Assembly: GCA_030684575.1 (NCBI GenBank) | Contig: JAUXVD010000008.1 | Location: 1 to 64,000, forward strand | Length of the DNA stretch: 64,000 nt | Origin: Nitrospirota bacterium | GTDB lineage: Bacteria; Nitrospirota; Nitrospiria; Nitrospirales; Nitrospiraceae | Direction of reading: 5' to 3' | Shown here: in pieces, positions 23,654-25,565 of the stretch | How the letters are laid out: every line of letters begins with the position of its first letter | How positions within the stretch are numbered: position 1 is the stretch's first letter | Notes under the pieces: generated by a model | Told to the model about the DNA's origin: nothing | Seen by the model: only the letters and a program-made list of their open reading frames with translations | Database searches by the model: none | Program-made: the position numbers and the translations under genes

Positions 23654-23734
23654 CTAGGAATAGAAGGTGCGCACGATCTCAGTCGTGTTGAAGAGCATCG
23701 TGTCGAGGCGCGTATCGCCCTCATGGTCATCGAA
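23654..23734 (-). pseudogene. 3' fragment of a paralogue of the gene at 24294-25565
   Basis: The minus-strand frame ends RFDDHEGDTRLDTMLFNTTE then IVRTFYS-stop. The end of the protein encoded at 24294-25565 reads DHYFGHAVYTRLDTMLFNTN then VIAESFYSSR-stop. The shared TRLDTMLFNT and the matching position of the stop mark this as the last roughly 26 codons of a lost paralogue. Upstream of it the similarity ends, where the toxin-antitoxin genes lie on the other strand. Confidence 0.75.
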
Positions 23735-23798: not shown

Positions 23799-23978
23799 AT
23801 GTCGACCGCAAAGAAACAGGCATTGGAGATGGTGAAGAAGTTGCCGGAGAAGGCGACGTGGGATGACATCATGTACGAAATCTATGTCCGCAAGAAGATT
23901 GCGGCCGGCATTCTGGCCGCCGATGAAGGGCGGGTCGTCCCGCACGAAACTGTGAAGAAGCGTTTCATTAAAAAATAA
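23799..23978 (+). CDS. Small antitoxin of a ParE-type module
   Basis: A 59-residue helical protein: KKQALEMVKKLPEKATWDDI then MYEIYVRKKIAAGI and EGRVVPHETVKKRF. This is the usual antitoxin found directly before ParE/RelE toxins of plasmid-stabilisation type. It starts at ATG 23799, with GAAAGA upstream, and its TAA overlaps the first codon of the toxin frame. It lies between a truncated paralogue fragment and the intact gene at 24294. Confidence 0.75.
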   Translation: MSTAKKQALEMVKKLPEKATWDDIMYEIYVRKKIAAGILAADEGRVVPHETVKKRFIKK

Positions 23979-24286
23979 CCCGCCTTGAGTGGACCGAGCC
24001 CGCCGTCGCCGACCTCGAAAATATCCAAGACTACATCGCGAGAGACTCCGCCGAGTATGCGGATGCTCTGATCGAACGGCTCATTCTGTCCGTCGATCAG
24101 CTCGAGTCGTTTCCTGAAAGCGGTCGGCGGGTGCCGGAATCTTCAGATCCAAAGGTTCGGGAGCTACTCGTCGAAGGATATCGCGTGATGTATCGGGTGA
24201 AGAAGGGGACGGTTCAAATTCTCGCGGTGACTCATGGCGCGCGGGATCTCGCCGGCATGAAGCCCAAGCCGTGGGCCAAGCGATGA
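23975..24286 (+). CDS. ParE/RelE-family toxin with only an ATA start available
   Basis: The frame encodes TRLEWTEPAVADLENIQDYI near the start, then FPESGRR, ELLVEGYRVMYRVKKG and ILAVTHGARDL, the full pattern of ParE/RelE-type toxins, about 103 residues. Upstream it is closed by a stop at 23969-23971, and the only codon at the right place is ATA (23975), overlapping the antitoxin TAA as ATAA. No ATG, GTG or TTG exists before conserved residues. The gene may use an AUA start, be made by slippage on the preceding A6 run, or be silenced. Coding sequence beyond the start is intact. Confidence 0.75.
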   Translation: MTRLEWTEPAVADLENIQDYIARDSAEYADALIERLILSVDQLESFPESGRRVPESSDPKVRELLVEGYRVMYRVKKGTVQILAVTHGARDLAGMKPKPWAKR

Positions 24287-24293
24287 GCGCCTG

Positions 24294-25565
24294 TTATCGG
24301 GAAGAGTAGAATGACTCGGCAATGACGTTGGTGTTAAAGAGCATTGTGTCGAGGCGGGTATAGACCGCGTGGCCGAAGTAATGGTCGCGCACATTCGTCG
24401 AGCCGGTGGAATCTTTGTAGTCGGCGAGAATTCCCAGTCCTTCACTCGGGATACGGACGGCACGGCGGGCACATTCGAGCCATCGTTCGAATCCATCGAG
24501 CGGCTCCACGATTTCCCACAGAGCTTTATTGGCTGCCTTGGCCGCTTCGGTCGTCGGCACGGCATCGCTGCTGGCCACGGCCAGCTCCTGGACATAATCT
24601 CCGCCCCAGGCGATCGGCATTTCCATCGTGATCTGCGGCAACTCCATCTTCGCGAGCCAGGTCTTGCCATCGGTTCGAAGATTTCGATGGTTGACGATGT
24701 GCAGGAGTTTGCCCAATCCTGACGGATCCCACCCGTAGCGTACCGGCATGCCGAAGGTGACGACGTCCAGCGTCGCCCCATTGAGCAGGGTGCCGTTCGC
24801 CAACAACGGAGTGATTCGTTGGATCGTCGAGGTGAGGTCCGGTCGATTGACTTGTAAGGCATAGGCCGACAAGAGGTCGAGCAGCCTGGTCCTGCTGCTG
24901 TTCGCGGTGACACATAGAAGGTTTGAGATGAGGGCGAGGACGAGTCCGGCCTGCCCGTGAGCCTCGACCAGGATCCGATCTCCTTGGCCCAGCTTATGGG
25001 TTTCGATCCAATCGCGCAGGCGCCCAAGCAGCGAGATGGCCGCCATCGCACGGCCCAGGTGATGGTGCTCACAGGCCCAGAGTTCGCGGATGCAAGAGAT
25101 CGGACGATCCAGGCCCCGGTTGAGCGACTGTTTCATCTGCTCCACATAGGCGTTGGTGAAGTTGCCGGCATCTCCAAGCTGCTCATCGAGGAGCCGCTTG
25201 GTGGCGTCATCGTTTGCGAGCGGTGGCTTCAATCCTCCGGACAGCGAGGAGATGCCATTGCTGCCGTCGCGGAGCAGCGCTAAGAGAGAATCGAGGCCTG
25301 TTACGCCGCGTGAGTACCCCCGTTTGAGCCCGCCCAATTCATCCAGCCGTTGAGCCCCGAAAAGATCGGTGCCCATGATGGAGCCGTGGAGCAACACGAT
25401 GAGGCGGACACCGGCCTGGGAGAGGCGCTTGCCGGCAAGGGCCATCGCCTCCTGTCCGGATGGCGATTCTGAGAGGGTGGTCGGGGTGACCTCACGAACT
25501 GAGAGGCGTTCGCCAGGATTTTTCCGGGACATCTCGTCGTGCTGGAAACTGTTTTCAATCGGCAT
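24294..25565 (-). CDS. Alpha/beta-hydrolase-like protein lacking the nucleophile serine
   Basis: A 423-residue protein, not assigned to a named family. RLIVLLHGSIMGTDLFGAQR looks like an alpha/beta-hydrolase first strand with its HG oxyanion motif, and ILVEAHGQAGLVLALISNLL occupies the nucleophile elbow, but the GxSxG serine is replaced by Gly (AHGQAG). A histidine near the end (VRDHYFGHAVY) could be the triad histidine. So it may be a non-catalytic fold. No signal peptide. It converges with the toxin gene with a 7-base gap and is flanked by repeat B copies; a truncated paralogue lies at 23654-23734. Confidence 0.6.
   Translation of the reverse strand: MPIENSFQHDEMSRKNPGERLSVREVTPTTLSESPSGQEAMALAGKRLSQAGVRLIVLLHGSIMGTDLFGAQRLDELGGLKRGYSRGVTGLDSLLALLRDGSNGISSLSGGLKPPLANDDATKRLLDEQLGDAGNFTNAYVEQMKQSLNRGLDRPISCIRELWACEHHHLGRAMAAISLLGRLRDWIETHKLGQGDRILVEAHGQAGLVLALISNLLCVTANSSRTRLLDLLSAYALQVNRPDLTSTIQRITPLLANGTLLNGATLDVVTFGMPVRYGWDPSGLGKLLHIVNHRNLRTDGKTWLAKMELPQITMEMPIAWGGDYVQELAVASSDAVPTTEAAKAANKALWEIVEPLDGFERWLECARRAVRIPSEGLGILADYKDSTGSTNVRDHYFGHAVYTRLDTMLFNTNVIAESFYSSR

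Follow-up and report, generated by a model that had tools for sequence, protein, structure and literature searches.

A ParE-type toxin gene with ATA at its start position in a Nitrospirota genome: a probable recent start-codon mutation in a decaying toxin–antitoxin module

How is the toxin of a toxin–antitoxin (TA) pair translated when its reading frame is whole and the codon at its start position is ATA? This question is raised by a locus of a Nitrospirota bacterium, related most closely, among named genomes, to Nitrospira assemblies, within the 64,000-nucleotide stretch of DNA analyzed here (the window). A preliminary description of this DNA had reported a ParE-type toxin frame with ATA where ATG belongs, overlapping the antitoxin stop as ATAA and preceded by another stop two codons earlier. 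It had proposed that AUA initiation, slippage on a neighboring A6 run or silencing was needed, each being a way to keep the toxin low. The features of the locus are collected in Table 1.

Table 1. Features of the ParE-type toxin–antitoxin locus (positions in the window)
Feature	Position	Strand	Remarks
Incomplete copy of the 3′ terminus of the downstream gene on the opposite strand	23685..23726		42 nt; other copy 24331-24372
Antitoxin gene	23799..23978	+	59 aa (MSTAKKQALEMVKKLPEKATWDDIMYEIYVRKK...), ATG start, TAA stop
In-frame TAA	23969..23971	+	two codons 5′ of the ATA; rules out any start further upstream
A6 run	23970..23975	+	final AAA AAA of the antitoxin gene, before its stop; neither conserved nor a canonical slippery site
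ATAA junction	23975..23978	+	ATA (23975-23977) overlaps the antitoxin stop TAA (23976-23978); relatives have ATGA
ParE-type toxin frame	23975..24286	+	103 codons plus TGA; intact except for the start codon

The sequence bears out this description of the frame and its junction. The antitoxin gene ends with ...GTG AAG AAG CGT TTC ATT AAA AAA TAA, and the toxin frame, which reads ...CAT TAA AAA ATA ACC CGC CTT GAG TGG across the same junction, is open until its TGA at 24284-24286. The toxin coordinates first given were right to within 5 nt, the start codon beginning at 23975 and not at 23970. No ATG, GTG or TTG was found in the toxin frame 5′ of the ATA, back to the in-frame TAA, and within the toxin such codons occur only at positions 53, 71, 72, 75, 85 and 95, which is too late for a ParE fold. 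An alternative true start was therefore rejected, and ATA is left as the only candidate, so that the toxin cannot be translated from a recognized start codon. A strong Shine-Dalgarno sequence was not found before the ATA; the best match (4/6) lies 19–20 nt upstream, with a duplex energy of −1.7 kcal/mol.

The toxin matched the Pfam ParE_toxin family (PF05016) with E=8e-19 and 68.5 bits against a cut-off of 23, covering positions 1-88 of the 89 in the profile, and a further 20 genomes of the family carry orthologues at E<=1e-25. Since the match is full-length and the orthologues are this numerous, the frame is more than a chance occurrence. An AlphaFold2 model reached a mean pLDDT of 92.8 and a pTM of 0.84, and superseded a poor earlier model built from eight close relatives (pLDDT 48). 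In a Foldseek search with this model, the top matches were the ParE structures 6x0a, 5ceg, 5czf and 5cw7, all in complex with antitoxins (E 1e-8 to 1e-6), and matches to RelE, YoeB and YafQ were weaker. The toxin is thus predicted to adopt the ParE/RelE fold and to be closer to ParE than to RelE. It resembles Mesorhizobium opportunistum ParE (6x0a, 5ceg) and E. coli ParE2 of the PaaA2–ParE2 system (5cw7, 5czf) in fold (TM about 0.8, 30–35% identity) and in having a small antitoxin gene immediately 5′. It differs from these systems in its ATA start, in an antitoxin that has no Pfam, NCBIfam or PADLOC model, and in that gyrase is here a putative target.

The 59-residue antitoxin matched none of the Pfam, NCBIfam or PADLOC models. 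Orthologues at E<=1e-15 were nevertheless found in 29 more genomes of the family, mostly directly 5′ of a ParE frame; this group of antitoxins, with its KKLPEKATWDDIMYEIYVRKKI core, is conserved and paired with ParE across the family. As 23 other loci carry both parts in the same order, we conclude that the locus is a chromosomal type II TA pair of the ParE superfamily. Beyond the family, a Cohnella plasmid carries a relative of the antitoxin that is labeled a hypothetical protein and lies next to a RelE/ParE toxin; all plasmid matches were below 60% identity, and a search of viral contigs returned no relative. The pair itself stands between two 42-nt direct repeats that correspond to the 3′ terminus of the gene on the opposite strand at 24294-25565. 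The copies are 83% identical, are spaced 646 nt apart and are the only two in the genome, and the same arrangement is present in the nearest relative (locus L003). This layout suggests that the TA pair was inserted long ago where that gene ends, accompanied by a partial duplication.

To establish the ancestral start, 175 genomes of the family and a genome collection were searched, and 23 other loci were found to keep the antitoxin together with the whole or a portion of the toxin. Comparison of the start codons of these homologous loci gave a normal one throughout: the toxin starts with ATG in 23/23, ATA occurs in none of them and is private to the window genome, and in 22/23 the ATG overlaps the antitoxin TGA as ATGA. 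In the single exception, G076, the ATG lies two bases 3′ of the antitoxin stop. The nearest relative, G028, whose toxin and antitoxin are each 95% identical to those of the window, has ATCAAAAAATGACC at the junction where the window has ATTAAAAAATAACC, or, in the antitoxin frame, ATC AAA AAA TGA versus ATT AAA AAA TAA. The ancestral junction was ATGA. The loss of the ATG and the gain of the TAA therefore go back to one and the same G-to-A change; what had been taken for two oddities is a single substitution from ATGA to ATAA. The in-frame TAA that blocks upstream starts results from the adjoining ATC/ATT difference. Reinitiation after termination at ATGA overlaps has been demonstrated for other gene pairs (PMC6728339). 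The ancestral junction of the window has the same four-base overlap as those pairs, whereas the present ATAA has its reinitiation codon weakened or lost.

The rest of the toxin frame shows no sign of decay. Compared with G028, and with the start excluded, the window toxin has 13 synonymous and about 5 non-synonymous changes (in 4 codons), giving a dN/dS of 0.12. Outgroups place three of these four amino-acid replacements on the G028 side, the fourth (N91D) being ambiguous. Had the whole branch been unconstrained, about 14–28 amino-acid changes would be expected in the window toxin, and 0–1 are observed. Consequently, the loss of the start is recent, or else toxin synthesis continues to some extent; a simple Poisson bound puts the neutral time at most at roughly 10–35% of the branch. 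Judged by these substitutions, the toxin frame is either still under constraint or released from it only recently.

In order to determine whether toxin loss extends to other members of the family, we scored the 30 relatives that bear an antitoxin, that is, the 29 at E<=1e-15 and G105, in which the antitoxin is partial. The toxin is intact in 15, broken in 8 and absent in 7. The lesions vary in type and place: G002 has a TGA at codon 6, G122 and G046 carry stops, G008 has an internal deletion, G096 and G061 have frameshifts, and G116 and G105 are truncated. Next to these broken toxins the antitoxin is uninterrupted, that of G105 being matched only partly. The opposite order was seen once, in L063 (G040; 1501-1674), where the antitoxin has a stop at codon 21 and the toxin is apparently intact. 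A sign test for the antitoxin outlasting the toxin versus the reverse gave p=0.04. At the loci that lack the toxin, most antitoxins have decayed as well (G018, G088, G090, G169 and G144), and in L065 (G144; 260-262) the start of the antitoxin itself is now ATA. Independent lesions in orthologues, with the toxin going before the antitoxin, characterize this module as a decaying one, and toxin-first is the order expected in the loss of a TA pair. At two toxin-less loci, L032 and L033 (G004 and G018), the antitoxin stop is lost too and the frame extends by a few codons. In both, the next frame resembles a helix-turn-helix regulator (MTAKQFRQARVRLGYTQAKLAEVLQLSRMTISRYEAG). We also considered constraint on the antitoxin after toxin death (G002 versus G019: dN/dS 0.29 for the toxin and 0.07 for the antitoxin), a comparison that involves few changes and that we do not press.

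TA systems on chromosomes have been described as decaying before (PMC7167474). As in ccdO157 of E. coli, cited there, the toxin is inactivated and the antitoxin stays, with several independent lesions among the relatives of the window. Unlike in ccdO157, the lesion of the window is at the start codon in a stop–start overlap and leaves the remainder of the toxin untouched.

A second ParE locus of the same subfamily in the window genome (L002/L086; G000:C16:195192-195506, minus strand) carries CTG at the codon that is ATG in 18 relatives. The remaining frame is open, the antitoxin is related to that of the window, and the CTG sits in another type of overlap, within the 3′-terminal part of the antitoxin gene. 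This toxin is altered at positions conserved in the relatives compared (FIARDS to FIAHDS, and the R of GARDL to Q), which, from the sequence, looks like relaxed constraint. For each of the five other Pfam ParE-family matches in the genome, of which one falls below the cut-off, there is a candidate ATG or GTG start. As a control, we compared contig G000:C8 with G008:C8 and obtained 121 orthologous gene pairs with aligned ATG, GTG or TTG starts. No clean start substitution in the window genome was found in this comparison, and four starts called as lost were apparently diverged N-termini or shadow frames. Given these 121 normally aligned starts, a genome-wide relaxation of the start code or a poor assembly is unlikely as the cause, and we rejected both. 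Of the 44 substitutions able to inactivate the window toxin through start loss or a nonsense codon, 7 are start losses, so that two of two would arise by chance with a probability of about 2.5%, a post hoc figure from two loci that is suggestive and no more.

The single base that departs from all relatives could be a base-call error or a minor assembly variant hiding an ATG, the more so as one genome of the species was compared. We hold this to be very improbable, since the difference is a substitution and not a homopolymer indel, the genome is 99.84% complete in 23 contigs, the orthologous genes on the contig have normally aligned starts, and a second, independent start change lies on another contig. 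Slippage, as first proposed, would join antitoxin to toxin by a −1 ribosomal shift after AAA AAA or by an extra A in the mRNA, and either event would indeed link the frames (...KKITRLEW...). However, the heptamer is T AAA AAA and does not conform to X XXY YYZ, and the P-site tRNA would have to re-pair, poorly, with UAA. Besides the window, the A6 run is found only in G028, G110 and G100, each of which has the ATG, most others having AAGAAATGA or similar, and a fused frame was not seen in any relative with the toxin. With the wrong heptamer in an unconserved run, the site is not that of a programmed −1 frameshift, and we rejected slippage as extremely improbable.

A weak start at the AUA deserves more weight, although we regard it as unlikely. 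Ribosomes reinitiating at AUAA would use the AUA weakly and give a low dose of functional toxin, making the change an attenuating and possibly selected allele instead of a null. Natural AUA/AUU starts limit expression in infC, ccpN and citZ of Staphylococcus aureus and in infC and pcnB of E. coli. With these genes the window has in common a near-cognate codon in front of an intact frame; its toxin is constrained in sequence and intact in predicted fold, and the G000:C16 toxin likewise pairs a near-cognate codon with an otherwise intact frame. The three S. aureus genes show that AUA starts exist in bacteria, and in reporters non-canonical starts gave about 10%, and the AUA of ccpN up to 30%, of the expression from AUG (PMC13009471). 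Yet the conserved S. aureus sites have extended Shine-Dalgarno support, and those of infC, ccpN and cvfC1 are described as guided by such a motif (PMC13009471); none is seen in the window, where the codon is private to one genome, unlike that of ccpN, and the ribosome site is weak. Neither the conserved codon nor the strong Shine-Dalgarno sequence of a regulatory AUA start is thus found here, and the changes at conserved positions in the G000:C16 toxin are more like relaxed constraint. An extension of the same idea, that both toxins of this subfamily are tuned down by near-cognate starts (AUA at AUAA, and CUG in the other overlap) so that reinitiating ribosomes make intact toxins at very low levels, we consider improbable. 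If true, start-codon attenuation would be a route to the domestication of TA toxins.

Taken together, these results make it likely that the toxin start codon of a decaying ParE module was mutated recently, with the toxin abolished or strongly lowered and the antitoxin left intact. The ancestral toxin was probably made by termination–reinitiation at the ATGA overlap. One G-to-A transition in the window lineage turned ATGA into ATAA, keeping the antitoxin stop (TGA to TAA) and losing the toxin start codon. Because no other start lies in frame, toxin synthesis would now be zero or limited to the small amount that AUA permits, the antitoxin being unaffected. The loss of the start would represent an early stage of decay in a module that has lost its toxin repeatedly and independently across the family, and the cause would be drift or selection against the toxin, not regulation. 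Two observations speak against this explanation: the remaining toxin frame is without decay, and a toxin that is still translated would look identical; and two start losses in one genome, where the dozen or so broken toxins of relatives include none, hint at a cause other than chance inactivation.

The alternatives first named, AUA initiation, slippage or silencing, were right as a list, with silencing or strong reduction fitting best, an AUA leak possible and slippage unlikely. The implication that each is an evolved device for keeping the toxin low is not supported, the ATA being private, the A6 run unconserved, and relatives losing the toxin by nonsense mutation, frameshift or deletion. Gene callers that require ATG, GTG or TTG would miss or shorten the window toxin. 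The loss of a toxin through its start codon is here a tidy case of a known type of event, to which the paired CTG locus adds modest interest. It would provide a one-base example of how a TA pair can be disarmed safely, a G-to-A change at ATGA dropping the toxin start while keeping the antitoxin stop.
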